A stretch of 32,442 bases of DNA, taken from assembly GCA_025656375.1 (NCBI GenBank), contig JAHXHU010000141.1:1-32442 (forward strand). The letters run 5' to 3'. This stretch comes from Candidatus Thiodiazotropha sp. (ex Ustalcina ferruginea). Lineage in GTDB: Bacteria; Pseudomonadota; Gammaproteobacteria; Chromatiales; Chromatiaceae. The notes under the pieces were generated by a model. That model did not search any database. It had not been told where the DNA came from and saw only the letters and a program-made list of their open reading frames with translations. Position 1 is the stretch's first letter, and each line of letters starts with the position of its first letter. A program made the position numbers and the translations under genes. Of the stretch, positions 13,487 to 21,012 are shown piece by piece.

Positions 13487-15394
13487 TTACGCTTGCTTCA
13501 GCGGAATTGAATCACCCTCCCGATCGCAATGCACATGCAGATCGAAGTTCAAATCATCGGCAAAATCCTGTGCGACTATCCAGATCTGGTTCAACTCTTC
13601 GCTCAGTGTAGGCAGTACCGTCAATGAACTGCGGGTACGTTTCTCATCAAAGAAAGCAAAGGGCTCATCCAGGAACAGGAACTGACTGCCTTGCACGGCC
13701 CGATCGACCAGCTCCTGTGAGAGGGCCAGACGTACCGCCAGCATAATCTGTCGCTGGGTACCACTGGAGATCTCATCCAGATCCATAAAGTCCCGCTTCT
13801 CACTGGAGAAGGCACGTACACTCAGATCATCATCGATTTGGAGATGCTCATAGCGGTTTTCCGTAAACAGGGGAAGCGTCTTGCTGACCAGACAACGAAG
13901 CTTGTGATTGAACTGATGGGAAACTTCACGTGTAGTGCCCTGAATCAACTCATCCGCAACGGCACAGACAGCCATATGACGCTCTTTATCATCAATCTTC
14001 TGCTTCAAGTCAACCTTTATCCCCTGAAGTTGTTCGACCTTATCCAACCTCGCCTGCTCTTGTGCAATAGCTTGATCGAGCTGCCCCAGACGACGCCTGT
14101 CCACTTCCACACCTTTACGTAATTGACTCTCTTCATGACCCACGCCATCCCTGACCTCGGCTATGCCTGGACGCCAGTCACTGACCCGTTGACTCAGACG
14201 TTCCCGGGCGGCACGATCAACCACGATAGACTCGGATTCAGATTCAGTCGGCTCTTCTGATGAGGGAGATTCAGAGTGCTCGACTTCAGATGCTGTCTCC
14301 TGCCCCTCGCTATCGTCCTGGATTTCTACAGTTGGCAGACTGCCCAGGTTATCCAGGGCCGTTGCCAATACAGACGCTGTCTCATCATAGGCTTCAGCAC
14401 TATTGTATTTCGACGCCCGGCGTATCCAGAAAATCACAAACAGCAGAGCAAAGCCACCTGCAGCATAGAGCAGCCAGGGAATCATAGATGCTTGCCAGTT
14501 AGGCACATTGTTGCTGATAAATTCAGATAACTGCAGCGCATATTCATGCTCAGGCATCTTTGCCAGCACATACCAGGCGCCACTTGCAAGCAGGGTCAAC
14601 AAGAGAAAGATGAACCGAAAGAAACCGGCGCGGCCCTGAGCCGAGAGGGCTTTCTCCCGTTTTGGAAGCGCATCCTGATAAGCAATGGATGCATCATCCA
14701 ACTGCTCGATCAGCCGGTTGGATTCATCCATGTGCCGGGAAATCTCAGCATGTTCACCATCCAGGGATGGCATCAGGTGGGGGTTGATACCTATTTCCTC
14801 AATTTGACCCTGTACTGTGATCTGTTCCGCCTGACGTTGCTCAACTTCATTGAGAGTCTCCTCCTTGTCCTCCTGGCAGGCTTGATCACAGTATTCCAAG
14901 GTCACGAGTCCCGCCATGGTCTTGACCGCGTAGCTATGAGGATGCGGTGTTGTGATCTCCCGCTGAGCCAGATAGAAGGATTCAACGAACTCTTCATACT
15001 CATAGCCGATGAGTTCATAAACCTTGTCTGCAACCTGCTCAACACCCCGGGCTATAGGTTCATCGTTTGGTGCTGACGCAGCAAGTGTCAACCGGGCACT
15101 GTGATTGCCTCCGTCATCAAGAAAACGTTCCAATCTGTATCTTTTTCCATCCCGGGGTGTGAACTCCAGTTGTGCTGAACAGTGGGTCTCCCCCCAGCGG
15201 ATTACCTTGGAAAGCTCATCCATGCCCAAAGAGAAGGTTCTGCCAAACAGGGCGAAACAGACGGTTTCACCAATCGAACTCTTTCCCGATTCATTGGGTC
15301 CGGAGACAGCGATCAATCCCCGCTCAGGAATATCCTGCAAATCCAGATCGGCGTATTTCAGAATATTGCTTGATTGAATAGCATTGATAATCAT
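13487..15394 (-). CDS. Membrane-embedded Rad50/YhaN-like SMC-type ATPase
   Basis: Walker A SGPNESGKSS, Q-loop region LAQREIT, coiled coil, two hydrophobic TM segments (FFRFIFLLLTLLASGAWYVLA and MIPWLLYAAGGFALLFVIFWI), acidic linker, signature EISSGTQRQIMLAVRLAL, Walker B FLFLDEPFAFFDE. ATG at 15394 overlaps the upstream stop. Confidence 0.8.
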   Translation of the reverse strand: MIINAIQSSNILKYADLDLQDIPERGLIAVSGPNESGKSSIGETVCFALFGRTFSLGMDELSKVIRWGETHCSAQLEFTPRDGKRYRLERFLDDGGNHSARLTLAASAPNDEPIARGVEQVADKVYELIGYEYEEFVESFYLAQREITTPHPHSYAVKTMAGLVTLEYCDQACQEDKEETLNEVEQRQAEQITVQGQIEEIGINPHLMPSLDGEHAEISRHMDESNRLIEQLDDASIAYQDALPKREKALSAQGRAGFFRFIFLLLTLLASGAWYVLAKMPEHEYALQLSEFISNNVPNWQASMIPWLLYAAGGFALLFVIFWIRRASKYNSAEAYDETASVLATALDNLGSLPTVEIQDDSEGQETASEVEHSESPSSEEPTESESESIVVDRAARERLSQRVSDWRPGIAEVRDGVGHEESQLRKGVEVDRRRLGQLDQAIAQEQARLDKVEQLQGIKVDLKQKIDDKERHMAVCAVADELIQGTTREVSHQFNHKLRCLVSKTLPLFTENRYEHLQIDDDLSVRAFSSEKRDFMDLDEISSGTQRQIMLAVRLALSQELVDRAVQGSQFLFLDEPFAFFDEKRTRSSLTVLPTLSEELNQIWIVAQDFADDLNFDLHVHCDREGDSIPLKQA

Positions 15395-15588
15395 GACCAA
15401 CCCTCATCTGCCAGCACTTTCAGCTTGCTCATGACCATTTCGATTGCCTGATCGAATGCCTCCTCATCGAATGCCTCACCGGAGTTGAGCCTCCGCTCAC
15501 GCTCTGCCGCGCAATAATCGAGAAATTCCTGGGCCGACGCCCCCAATGACAGATTCTCCTGATGTGTAGTCCGTTCAGACGAAGACAT
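15391..15588 (-). CDS. Small conserved-looking acidic protein (65 aa) translationally coupled to the SMC-like ATPase
   Basis: SD AAAGGGGAG upstream of ATG at 15588 (MSSSERTTHQENLSL...); ATGA overlap with the downstream ATPase start. Confidence 0.7.
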   Translation of the reverse strand: MSSSERTTHQENLSLGASAQEFLDYCAAERERRLNSGEAFDEEAFDQAIEMVMSKLKVLADEGWS

Positions 15589-15916: not shown

Positions 15917-16531
15917 ATGAATGTGCACAAAAACATGAATGCTGATGCTGACAGTACCCGACAATCACTCCTGAAAGCCGCCTACGAGGAGATCCATCGT
16001 TATGGTTTTCAAGCTGCCAGCCTGAATGCCATTCTGGATCGGACCGGCGTGACGAAAGGAGCCCTCTACCATCACTTCAGCAATAAGCTGCAACTCGGCT
16101 ATGCGGTGCTGGATGAACATATCGCCGTTGAATTGGAATCACTCTGGTTCGAACCCATGCAACAGCCCGGACATCCGATCGAGGTCTTAATGGCAGCAAT
16201 TAAACAGTTGGGGGATCACTATGAATGTGAAGAGATCACCCTTGGCTGCCCGCTTAACAATCTGGCTCAGGAGATGTCAGCCATCGATGATGGCTTTCGT
16301 CAGCGAGTTGATACCCTCTACCAGCGCTGGCAGACCAGTATCGAAACACTCCTGGCCAGAGGACAGCAGCAAGGCAGTGTGAACACCTCTATCGACGCTG
16401 CTGACACTGCATTTTTCATTTTGGCCTCCCTTGAGGGTTGTATGAGTATGGCAAAAAATGCGCAGAGTCACGACGAACTGATGCGCTGCGGCCAGGGACT
16501 GATGAACTATCTGAATAGTCTCCGTGCCTAA
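15917..16531 (+). CDS. TetR/AcrR family transcriptional regulator
   Basis: N-terminal HTH: LLKAAYEEIHRYGFQAASLNAILDRTGVTKGALYHHFSNKLQLGYAVLDEHI. Confidence 0.9.
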   Translation: MNVHKNMNADADSTRQSLLKAAYEEIHRYGFQAASLNAILDRTGVTKGALYHHFSNKLQLGYAVLDEHIAVELESLWFEPMQQPGHPIEVLMAAIKQLGDHYECEEITLGCPLNNLAQEMSAIDDGFRQRVDTLYQRWQTSIETLLARGQQQGSVNTSIDAADTAFFILASLEGCMSMAKNAQSHDELMRCGQGLMNYLNSLRA

Positions 16532-16625
16532 GCCTTAGTCAGAATAGGCAGCATCATTTCCATGGATTGAAAAAATTGAAGATCCTATTAACCAACAACA
16601 AAAAGTCAGTGACAGGGACAGAACA

Positions 16626-19028
16626 ATGAGCGAAGCATTTTTTCAGTTTGTATTGAAACACCGATTACTGGTGATATTCCTGGCTGTGACGCTCTCCCTG
16701 CTGATGGGAAGTGGTGTAAAACAGCTACAGTTCAGCAATGACTACCGGATGTTTTTCAGCGAGGAGAACCCTCAACTTAAGGCCTTCGAACAGCTGCAGA
16801 ACACCTACACCAAAAACGATAATGTGCTGTTTGTCATCAAACCCCGGAATGACAAAGTCTTTACCAGAGAGACACTGACTGCTGTCGCTGCACTGACCAA
16901 GGAAGCCTGGCAGATCCCCTACTCATTGCGGGTCGACTCTATCACCAATTTCCAGCATACCTATGCGGAAGGCGATGACCTGGTGGTTGAGGATCTGGTG
17001 CTGGATCCTCAGTCTCTGACTGATGAACAACTGGCAGAGAAGCAGCAGATCGCTACCAGCGATCCTTTGCTGGTCAACCGGCTCATATCACCTACTGCTC
17101 ACACCACCGGTGTCAATGTGACCGTTCAACTCCCGGGTAAAAAGCTGACTGAAGTGCCCGAAGTAGCCAGTATGGCCAGAGAAATGGTGCGCAATCTAGA
17201 AGCGGACTATCCCCATATCAAAGTTCACCTTACCGGTATGGTGATGATGAACAACGCCTTTCCCTCCGCCTCCCTGGATGACATGAAGAGCCTCTATCCC
17301 ATCATGTTCGGGGCGGTGATTCTGGTGCTGGTCGTGATGTTGCGCTCAATTCCCGGCACCCTCTCTACCCTGATCATAATTATCCTTATGATCATTGCCA
17401 CCCTGGGTTTGACAGGCTGGCTCGGCATCAAGATGTCACCACCCACCACAACTGTGCCGATCGTCATCATGACCCTGGCTATCGCAGACTGTGTACATAT
17501 CCTGGTCAATTTCTTACATAATATGCGCGACGGTGAGAACAAATATCAGGCGATGATGGAAAGCCTGAGAATCAATCTGCAACCGATTTTTCTCACTACA
17601 TTGACTACCGCAATCGGTTTTCTCAGCCTCAATTTCAGCGAGGCACCCCCTTTCCGTGATCTGGGTAACATGTCTGCGATGGGTGTGGTACTGGCATTTC
17701 TTCTCTCCATTACCTTCCTCCCTGCAATGATGATGCTGCTACCGGTAAAGGCACTGAGTGGTGATACCTTGGGCAGCGTCGCAATGATTCGATTTTCTGA
17801 ATTCGTAGTGCGCAATAAGAAAGGGCTGCTGTGGGGAATGGGAATAGTCATTCTGTTTCTCGTTTCACAGATACCCAACAATCGGCTTGACGATCAGTTT
17901 GTTAAATATTTCGATGAGACCATTACTTTCCGTCAGGCGACTGACTTCACCACTGAGAACCTGACTGGTATCTATCTGGTTGAATACTCATTGGAGAGCG
18001 GCGAGACAGGTGGCATCAGCGAGCCGAAGTTCCTACAAAAGGTGGAGGGGTTTGCCCAATGGTACCGACAGCAACCCTATGTGCTGCATGTCAACTCCAT
18101 CACCGACATCATGAAGCGTCTCAATCGCAACATGCATGAGGATGACAACGATTGGTACCGACTGCCGGATCAACGCGACCTGTCGGCCCAATACCTGCTG
18201 CTGTATGAATTCTCCCTTCCCTTTGGGCTTGATCTGAACAATCAGATCAATGTAAAGAAGTCTGCTATACGTTTTACTGTGACAATGGAGAGTATATCCA
18301 CACAACAGCTGTTGAAGATCGAGGAGAGTGCCCAGGCATGGTTGACCGAGCATGCACCGGGTATGCGTATTGATGGGGCCAGCCCAACGATCATGTTCGC
18401 CCACATCGGCAGTCGTAATATTATTGCCATGCTCAAGGGCACCACATTGGCCCTGGTAATGATCTCTATCATCTTGATATTCGCACTGAAATCATTGCGC
18501 ATCGGTGGACTCAGTCTGATTCCCAACTTAGTGCCTATGGGTATGGCTTTCGGACTCTGGGGCATGTTTGTCGGTGAAGTAGGTCTCGCCCTTTCCGTAG
18601 TGACAGGCATGACACTCGGTATTGTGGTTGACGATACGGTGCATTTTCTCAGTAAATATCTTCGTGCACGACGGGAGAAAAACATGGACCGGGAAGATGC
18701 GGTTCGTTATGCATTCTCCACTGTCGGCACCGCGCTATGGGTCACCTCACTGGTATTGATGGTTGGTTTCGGTATCCTTGCCTTCTCCCATTTCCAACTC
18801 AATGCGGGTATGGGTTTACTAACCGCCGTCACCCTCGGCTTTGCCCTTATTGCCGACTTTCTGTTTCTGCCCCCGCTGCTGATCTATTTCGGAGGAAAAA
18901 ATCATGAAGCCAATCCTTATTCCCATTGTATTGCTATTTGCGCCCGCTACGGCACTGGCAGCTACCGCAGAAGAACGCGGTTTGGAGATCGCCACGGAGA
19001 TCGAAGTACGGGATACCGGCTTCCATGA
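16626..19028 (+). CDS. RND/MMPL-family transporter (two SSD-like halves); C-terminal ~40 aa lie out of frame inside the next gene
   Basis: Twelve-TM layout with duplicated periplasmic regions, GMTLGIVVDDTVHFLSKY and TIAIADCVHILVNF-type motifs. Frame overlaps lolA-like ORF by 125 nt. Confidence 0.85.
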   Translation: MSEAFFQFVLKHRLLVIFLAVTLSLLMGSGVKQLQFSNDYRMFFSEENPQLKAFEQLQNTYTKNDNVLFVIKPRNDKVFTRETLTAVAALTKEAWQIPYSLRVDSITNFQHTYAEGDDLVVEDLVLDPQSLTDEQLAEKQQIATSDPLLVNRLISPTAHTTGVNVTVQLPGKKLTEVPEVASMAREMVRNLEADYPHIKVHLTGMVMMNNAFPSASLDDMKSLYPIMFGAVILVLVVMLRSIPGTLSTLIIIILMIIATLGLTGWLGIKMSPPTTTVPIVIMTLAIADCVHILVNFLHNMRDGENKYQAMMESLRINLQPIFLTTLTTAIGFLSLNFSEAPPFRDLGNMSAMGVVLAFLLSITFLPAMMMLLPVKALSGDTLGSVAMIRFSEFVVRNKKGLLWGMGIVILFLVSQIPNNRLDDQFVKYFDETITFRQATDFTTENLTGIYLVEYSLESGETGGISEPKFLQKVEGFAQWYRQQPYVLHVNSITDIMKRLNRNMHEDDNDWYRLPDQRDLSAQYLLLYEFSLPFGLDLNNQINVKKSAIRFTVTMESISTQQLLKIEESAQAWLTEHAPGMRIDGASPTIMFAHIGSRNIIAMLKGTTLALVMISIILIFALKSLRIGGLSLIPNLVPMGMAFGLWGMFVGEVGLALSVVTGMTLGIVVDDTVHFLSKYLRARREKNMDREDAVRYAFSTVGTALWVTSLVLMVGFGILAFSHFQLNAGMGLLTAVTLGFALIADFLFLPPLLIYFGGKNHEANPYSHCIAICARYGTGSYRRRTRFGDRHGDRSTGYRLP

Positions 19029-19683
19029 TTTCAAAGCGACTATGAGCATGCTATTACGAAACAAGCATGGCGAAGAGAGTTTGCGTGACATGCGCAACCA
19101 AACCCTGGAAGTGGACAATGACGGTAACAAGACGCTGGTCGTGTTCGATGAACCACGGGATGTCAAAGGCACCGCCCTGCTCAGCTTTTCTCATAAGGCG
19201 GGCGATGACGACCAATGGCTCTACCTGCCGGCCCTGAAAAGGGTAAAACGTATAGCATCACGCAACAAGTCAGGCCCCTTCATGGGCAGTGAATTTGCCT
19301 ATGAAGACATCTCCTCCCAGGAGGTAGAAAAATACAACTATAAGTTCATTGATGAAGGTGGACACGAAGGCATACCCAGTTTTATTCTCGAACGCTACCC
19401 GGTTGATCCCAATTCAGGCTATACCCGTCAACAGGTATGGGTCGATAAGGAGCGATATATTCCACTCAAGATCGATTATTACGATCGCAAAAACTCACCC
19501 TTGAAGACATTGGTTTTTCGTGATTACCAGCAATACCTCGATCAATATTGGCGGGCAGACGAGATGTATATGGAAAATCACCAGACGGGTAAAAGTACAC
19601 TGCTGACCTGGAAACAGTATGGCTTTCGCAGTGGCCTGACTGATGGGGATTTCAATAAGAACAGTCTGAAGCGGGCAAGGTGA
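18904..19683 (+). CDS. LolA-like outer-membrane lipoprotein-sorting protein
   Basis: Signal peptide, SD GGAGG at 18891-18895, DDQWLYLPALKRVKRIASRNKSGPFMGSEFAYEDI and YDRKNSPLKTLVF motif. Confidence 0.85.
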   Translation: MKPILIPIVLLFAPATALAATAEERGLEIATEIEVRDTGFHDFKATMSMLLRNKHGEESLRDMRNQTLEVDNDGNKTLVVFDEPRDVKGTALLSFSHKAGDDDQWLYLPALKRVKRIASRNKSGPFMGSEFAYEDISSQEVEKYNYKFIDEGGHEGIPSFILERYPVDPNSGYTRQQVWVDKERYIPLKIDYYDRKNSPLKTLVFRDYQQYLDQYWRADEMYMENHQTGKSTLLTWKQYGFRSGLTDGDFNKNSLKRAR

Positions 19684-19684
19684 C

Positions 19685-19718
19685 TTTGAGTTTTGAGTTT
19701 TGAGTTTTGAGTTTTGAG
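19685..19718. repeat. Heptanucleotide tandem repeat (T)TTTGAG x5
   Basis: Five near-perfect consecutive units directly after the lolA-like stop codon (19681-19683). Confidence 0.9.
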
Positions 19719-19750
19719 TCATAGGGTGTGGATCTTAAACAAAGCGCTCT

Positions 19751-19767
19751 GTGCGGCAGGGCCGCAC
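19751..19767. repeat. REP-like palindrome GTGCGGC-AGG-GCCGCAC, with an additional TAGGGTGTGG half-unit at about 19722
   Basis: Same family as 5510 and 10483. Confidence 0.65.
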
Positions 19768-19833
19768 CCTATGTGGCTGTTTTCTGCTCGACCAGGAAAA
19801 CTGGCCATTATTTTATTCTTAGGAGTATGTAGT

Positions 19834-21012
19834 GTGAAAGTATGGCGATGGGTATTGCTGCTGATCCCCGGGCTGTTATCTGCTGGTGAATGGAGTGGTT
19901 TTGTCGAAATGCAGGGGCGATTTTTTCCTCAGCAGGCACTGGATAGTGATCAGTCTGGTCAACTCGTCTCGGTTGTGCTGCAACCGGAATACTATCAACG
20001 CTGGGATAAGGATAAACAGAGTCTGCTGTTCATACCCTTATTCCGTTGGGACAGTGAAGATGATGAACGAACCCATGGCGATATCAGCGAACTGATCTGG
20101 ACCTATGCTGGAGACGGCTGGGAGACCCGGGCCGGCATCGGCAAGGTATTTTGGGGCGTCACAGAGGCACTGCATCTGGTGGATGTGATCAACCAGACCG
20201 ATCTGGTCGAAAACCCGGACGGTGAACAAAAGCTGGGCCAACCGATGATAAAGCTTTCTCTTGAACAAGCGTGGGGCATACTCGATTTATATGCCTTGCC
20301 AGGTTTTCGTGAGCGAACCTACCCGGGTGAAACCGGACGTCTGCGGACTCATCCACGTGTAGAGACAGATCAGGCAACCTATCAATCTGACCGGGAAGAG
20401 AGACATATCGATCTGGCGTTGCGCTGGTCCCATTTTATCGGTGACTGGGATATTGGCCTGGCCCATTTCAACGGTACCAACCGCGATCCCCTACTGATGC
20501 CTGATCTTAATGATAGGGGAGAGGTGATACTCATACCCTTCTACGAACAGATGCATCAAACCAGCCTCGACCTGCAAGCCACAAAAGGTGATTGGCTGTG
20601 GAAGATGGAACTCCTCCACCGCTCTCTCGATAGCGGCAGTTTCAATGCTGCAACCGGCGGTTTTGAATATACCCTGGTTGGCATCGCTGATAGTGACATG
20701 GACCTGGGTCTATTGGGCGAATATCTCTATGACGACCGAGGCGACGATGCCTCAACACCCTTTGAAAACGATCTGTTTATCGGTTTGCGTCTGACTGCCA
20801 ATGATGTGGAAGGCAGTGAACTCTTGGCAGGTGTCATCAAAGATCTGGATAATGACGGCTGGATGTTCAACCTTGAAGCGAGCCGGCGAATCGGTAACGA
20901 CTGGAAAACGAGTGCACAAATCCGCTTATGGTCAGATATCCCAGTAGATGATCCGCTATATATCTTCCATCGCGATGATTACCTGGAGTTTACGCTGACA
21001 CGTTTTTTCTAA
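19834..21012 (+). CDS. Putative outer-membrane beta-barrel protein partnered with RND/LolA-like proteins
   Basis: GTG start at 19834 (VKVWRWVLLLIPGLLSAGEW, signal peptide). Alternating aromatic/polar strands and C-terminal EFTLTRFF ending in aromatic F. Upstream ORF extension crosses the REP repeat and is unlikely to be translated. Confidence 0.65.
   Translation: MKVWRWVLLLIPGLLSAGEWSGFVEMQGRFFPQQALDSDQSGQLVSVVLQPEYYQRWDKDKQSLLFIPLFRWDSEDDERTHGDISELIWTYAGDGWETRAGIGKVFWGVTEALHLVDVINQTDLVENPDGEQKLGQPMIKLSLEQAWGILDLYALPGFRERTYPGETGRLRTHPRVETDQATYQSDREERHIDLALRWSHFIGDWDIGLAHFNGTNRDPLLMPDLNDRGEVILIPFYEQMHQTSLDLQATKGDWLWKMELLHRSLDSGSFNAATGGFEYTLVGIADSDMDLGLLGEYLYDDRGDDASTPFENDLFIGLRLTANDVEGSELLAGVIKDLDNDGWMFNLEASRRIGNDWKTSAQIRLWSDIPVDDPLYIFHRDDYLEFTLTRFF

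Follow-up and report, generated by a model that had tools for sequence, protein, structure and literature searches.

SMC and Rad50 machines are usually regarded as soluble rings or clamps that are closed by a hinge or a hook. A helix-loop-helix of Mre11 binds the base of the Rad50 coiled coil (PMC7407228), archaeal SMC-related proteins (ASRPs) mostly have a zinc hook (PMC9389158), and several defence systems employ SMC-like ATPases (PMC10586767). We analysed a gene pair in a DNA stretch of 32,442 nucleotides (the window) from Candidatus Thiodiazotropha sp. (ex Ustalcina ferruginea), in which a Rad50-like ATPase with transmembrane-like (TM-like) segments is encoded together with a small acidic protein. 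A conserved family of this kind in two bacterial classes, with a membrane hairpin in place of the hinge or hook and a tiny helical protein in place of the nuclease partner, would show that a Rad50 head has been recruited to membrane work, either the holding of DNA or signalling across the membrane, and the tight gene pairing makes this directly testable.

The gene pair, its distribution and its inheritance

Both ORFs were confirmed on the minus strand of the window where the preliminary description had placed them. The first gene of the pair encodes the small acidic protein of 65 residues (positions 15391 to 15588) and the second a membrane-anchored Rad50-like ABC/SMC-type ATPase of 635 residues (13487 to 15394), with its ATG at 15394 and its stop at 13487–13489; translation might also begin earlier, at an in-frame TTG at 15400. 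The stop of the small ORF and the ATG of the ATPase are joined in an ATGA overlap, and the nearest named locus (Candidatus Thiodiazotropha) is 97% identical. The offset from the small ORF to the ATPase was +4 in 110 of 131 loci. The position of the small ORF, always just upstream and mostly with overlapping start and stop codons, indicates co-translation and a stable complex. At loci L060 and L061 (around positions 409 and 307, respectively), the two ORFs share one frame, in contrast with the usual ATGA overlap, and are separated solely by a TGA plus two codons.

The preliminary description had asked whether the 65-residue gene is conserved with the ATPase, and this proved to be so: the small ORF lay just upstream of the ATPase in all 137 loci whose 5' end was intact and for which upstream sequence was available. 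These comprise 131 loci found automatically and six checked separately, and some duplicates of one genome occur among them, the alignment containing 123 distinct pairs; the small-ORF scores were weak in three of the 131 (L127, L142 and L146). When the 170 genomes of the order were searched independently for each protein, the ATPase was found in 90, the small ORF in 89 and both in 89. No genome had the small ORF without the ATPase, and in the single ATPase-only genome the ATPase match was merely partial.

The pair is carried by sulfur-oxidising symbiont bacteria and many relatives: the family occurs in 21 of the 22 genomes of the genus, 90 of the 170 in the order and 35 of 370 sampled Gammaproteobacteria, as well as in 22 of 30 genomes from a second class of this phylum, which may be the Magnetococcia. 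Since both proteins recur paired in more than 100 loci and in two classes, their association is not due to chance; the pair is genuine and ancient. In the genus and the relatives closest to it, the identity of the ATPase tracks that of the neighbouring HrpB (ATPase/HrpB identities 97/97, 91/90, 76/72, 73/73, 68/64, 64/64 and 58/59), which fits vertical inheritance. Three broken-looking ATPase copies (G720:C1:1537044-1540144, G811:C1:1495267-1496863 and G697:C103:15943-17904) showed in-frame stops or a split match, with the small ORF still detected alongside, suggesting that the pair is not essential everywhere.

These results bear on the idea that the pair is an SMC-like anti-phage or anti-plasmid defence system, like Lamassu, Wadjet or MADS, in which the small protein would be a sensor or an effector regulator. 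The best PADLOC matches of the ATPase were indeed mad3 (3.5e-17) and LmuB (9e-12), although such matches are expected of any protein with this head, and SMC-like ATPases are known from several defence systems (PMC10586767). However, no effector domain is present in the pair, nearly all genomes of the genus carry the pair, it is syntenic and vertically inherited there, and a search of plasmid, phage and viral contig collections revealed no close relative. A defence function is thus regarded as quite improbable.

Domain organisation of the ATPase and the small protein

Neither protein of the pair reached a specific family model. The only Pfam model passed by the ATPase was the generic AAA_23 (40 bits, cut-off 27), and its best NCBIfam match was archaeal Rad50 (69 bits against a cut-off of 847), with SbcC at 34.6 against 478.5. 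A PDB sequence search gave Rad50 matches at 4e-18, and Rad50 chains were the top Foldseek matches of the AF2 model of the ATPase (pLDDT 81). The heads had been called Rad50/YhaN-like. The Rad50 part of this assignment was borne out, the best scores being with archaeal Rad50, whereas kinship with YhaN was not: the AAA_27 (YhaN) match of 15.4 bits fell under the cut-off of 22, and the same genome encodes a YhaN of its own, in a separate frame of 1195 codons that has no TM segments.

All ATPase features described here are on the minus strand. The N-terminal lobe (residues 1–162, positions 14909 to 15394) contains Walker A GPNESGKS (32–39) and the Q-loop Gln 144, and the C-terminal lobe (residues 491–635, positions 13490 to 13924) contains the signature SSGTQ (543–547), Walker B LDEP (575–578), the D-loop and the H-loop with Gln 609. 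Among 124 sequences, the G and K of Walker A were kept in every one and the Q-loop Gln in 121; residues of Walker A, the Q-loop, the signature, Walker B and the D-loop showed more than 90% conservation, the second signature Ser being conserved at 85%. This conservation of catalytic residues across homologues suggests an active ATPase. The earlier reading of 'IWIVAQDF' at the expected switch His was correct: Gln 609 occupies the position of the H-loop His, and Gln is found there in 122 of 123 homologues. Since the His is also absent from some SMC proteins, the Gln need not imply inactivity. Both head lobes are net acidic family-wide, with mean charges of -9.5 and -7.2.

An ascending coiled-coil arm (residues 163–250, positions 14645 to 14908; helices 163–201 and 207–279 in the AF2 model) and a descending one (residues ~402–490, positions 13925 to 14191; helix 411–510) extend from the lobes, and the span from head to membrane was estimated at 12 nm (~80–90 residues at 1.5 Å per residue). 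ATPases with long arms, of ~750 residues, occur in the second class and in some Gammaproteobacteria. Between the arms lie two hydrophobic TM-like segments with an intervening loop (residues 252–329, positions 14408 to 14641), as assigned by hydropathy and charge. The segments (~252–279 and ~307–329, each ~20–28 residues long) are joined by a loop of ~27–28 residues without Lys or Arg and bear basic residues on their outer flanks; the TM segments, like these flanks, are net positive and the loop is net negative. At least two mid-protein hydrophobic segments were present in 131 of 131 ATPases; TM-like segments were thus found, as had been claimed, in the middle of the coiled coil, in the position that the hook has in Rad50. 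By the positive-inside rule, both arms and heads would be cytoplasmic. The window ATPase has no CxxC, and just seven of the 131 homologues have one in mid-protein.

An acidic Ser/Glu-rich linker (residues ~353–393, positions 14216 to 14335) precedes the descending arm and is predicted to be disordered, with pLDDT below 50 at residues 357–391. It is present in the window ATPase as first described, but it is not a feature of the family: relatives differ greatly in its length and composition, and several nearly lack it.

The small protein has a pI of 4.35 and gave no match in Pfam, NCBIfam or PADLOC, and PHROG and PDB matches only at chance level; a Cullin-3 match of its profile (E 0.01, about one helix long) was likewise judged to be due to chance. 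Its near-invariant residues are F22, E29, R32, F40, A48 and L56. Following an N-terminal tail, a helix-loop-helix is predicted (~residues 18–37 and 42–58), which reaches pLDDT ~97 in the model of the L060 homologue, and R30 and D46 covary, as expected of an antiparallel hairpin. The fused pseudo-complex of L060, in which the TGA was read as Trp purely as a computing device, showed the helix-loop-helix with confidence but yielded no readable contacts from which to place a docking site; its alignment had unpaired rows and an 11-residue misalignment. Coevolution analysis (MI and mean-field DCA on 124 paired sequences, Neff 72) was rejected for the same use, since the top pairs within the ATPase were not sensible and the inter-protein pairs were therefore noise.

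Nuclease genes, genomic neighbourhood and possible functions

The preliminary description had reported no adjacent SbcD- or YhaO-like nuclease, and no nuclease gene adjoins the pair in the window. The same was found among homologues: in 15 genomes no metallophosphoesterase was located within ~20 kb of the ATPase, the nearest Metallophos match being at least ~20 kb distant or on a different contig. A motif scan of the neighbourhoods revealed one metallophosphatase-like ORF (L143). It could still be argued that the ATPase is an SbcC/YhaN variant and works with an SbcD- or YhaO-like nuclease whose gene lies elsewhere. The Rad50-type head is consistent with this, as are eight metallophosphoesterase-family matches elsewhere in the same genome and the higher frequency of SbcD in carriers of the class (12 of 35) than in non-carriers (37 of 335), a comparison uncorrected for phylogeny. 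On the other hand, SbcD is unmatched in the genome itself and in 23 of the 35 carriers, no metallophosphoesterase is encoded near the ATPase in the 15 genomes, and YhaN and SbcC are separate proteins without TM segments in these genomes. It is therefore very unlikely that the ATPase is such a variant. The notion that the pair replaces SbcCD was also rejected, because SbcD is no less frequent in carriers. A canonical SbcCD pair was seen in one of the 22 genomes of the genus (L177/G006:C153), and the other 21, including the one studied here, gave no SbcD match.

The gammaproteobacterial neighbours of the pair vary and are housekeeping-like. They include hrpB and, as far as we could name them by reading the sequences, presumably hslVU, an RNase II-like gene, an alanyl-tRNA synthetase-like gene and a glucokinase/lactonase/UvrD-like set. 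One group of loci (L043, L046–L050, L053, L056, L062 and L121) has the conserved order of HslV-HslU-like genes, an ORF of ~123 residues and then the pair. On the plus strand of the window, positions 15917 to 21012 encode a TetR regulator, an MMPL-type RND protein, a LolA-like protein and an ORF without a Pfam match, a cluster that diverges from the pair and is conserved in the genus. SOS control was rejected, as there was no LexA-like site between positions 15588 and 15917; together with the housekeeping-like neighbours, this leaves a stress-related or phage-related function without positive support. The family as a whole has no conserved functional partner.

The second class differs in its neighbours. 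In 14 of 17 loci (L131, L134–L141 and L143–L147), a PstS-like PBP_like_2 gene (PF12849) was found directly downstream of the ATPase and in the same orientation, and several of these genes overlap the ATPase by 4 bases. Upstream of the small ORF there is often an MFS gene together with an ORF of ~380 residues without a Pfam match.

The head motifs, the TM-like segments and the gene pair itself are strongly supported by the sequence, and from them we infer dimerisation, a docking site for the small protein, DNA binding and the tethering of DNA to the membrane. We tentatively propose that the pair is an inner-membrane-anchored, two-subunit Rad50/SMC-type ATPase with a nuclease-free helix-loop-helix subunit, which clamps DNA at the inner membrane. 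Two copies would pair in the membrane via their TM hairpins, the heads would close on ATP, and the closed heads could then clamp DNA, such as ends, forks or incoming DNA, which would thereby be kept at the inner membrane, ready for other enzymes. A membrane-tethered clamp is favoured because of the Rad50-like head and because the Mre11 helix-loop-helix binds the base of the Rad50 arm (PMC7407228).

The net acidic head lobes, however, count against a DNA clamp, and the periplasmic protein gene that is coupled to the ATPase in the second class makes a role confined to DNA less likely. For these reasons trans-membrane coupling or signalling stays a serious rival, and it is the main one, although we consider it rather unlikely. 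Here the opening and closing of the heads would be passed through the arms and the TM hairpin to the periplasm, or a periplasmic state would be passed inward, by FtsEX/MacB-type mechanotransmission and with a periplasmic binding protein as the partner in some lineages. The TM hairpin at the arm tip of every member is in line with this, but no recurring neighbour comparable to the PstS-like gene was found in the Gammaproteobacteria examined, the periplasmic loop has merely ~28 residues, and the PDB searches liken the heads to DNA-acting Rad50 and not to transporter ABC domains. A specific form of this mechanism, in which the ATPase works across the inner membrane and head engagement in the cytoplasm moves the TM hairpin so as to act on or sense a periplasmic partner (PstS-like in one class) while the helix-loop-helix subunit gates the heads, appears unlikely.

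Comparison with known systems

The pair had been proposed as an undescribed membrane-embedded two-gene ATPase without a nuclease partner. We found no matching description of a membrane-anchored Rad50-like protein in the libraries or the open-access literature, and the pair appears undescribed. With Rad50/SbcC the ATPase shares a split ABC head, whose N- and C-terminal lobes are joined by antiparallel coiled-coil arms, but its arms are short and end in a TM hairpin instead of a zinc hook, the H-loop His is replaced by Gln, the signature reads 'SSGTQ', and a tiny dedicated partner is coupled to it rather than an Mre11/SbcD nuclease. A plausible counterpart of the small protein's helix-loop-helix is the part of Mre11 that binds Rad50. 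YhaN, the partner of the YhaO nuclease, likewise has an SMC-like head (in the YhaN of the same genome, 'SAGTRDQLYLALRLA' resembles 'SSGTQRQIMLAVRLA'), whereas the ATPase described here has no YhaO-type nuclease as a neighbour.

LmuB of Lamassu and mad3 of MADS also have an SMC-like head; unlike them, the present ATPase has a TM hairpin and is tightly paired with an unrelated small ORF, with no effector in the pair. The archaeal SMC-related proteins ClsN/Sph and ASRP are similar in being SMC-like ATPases with a split head and coiled coil, although ASRP matched the ATPase only at E 0.19. Compared with condensin-type SMC proteins, the ATPase has TM-like segments at the position of the hinge and no globular hinge, and its partner is a 65-residue ORF without a kleisin or other Pfam match.
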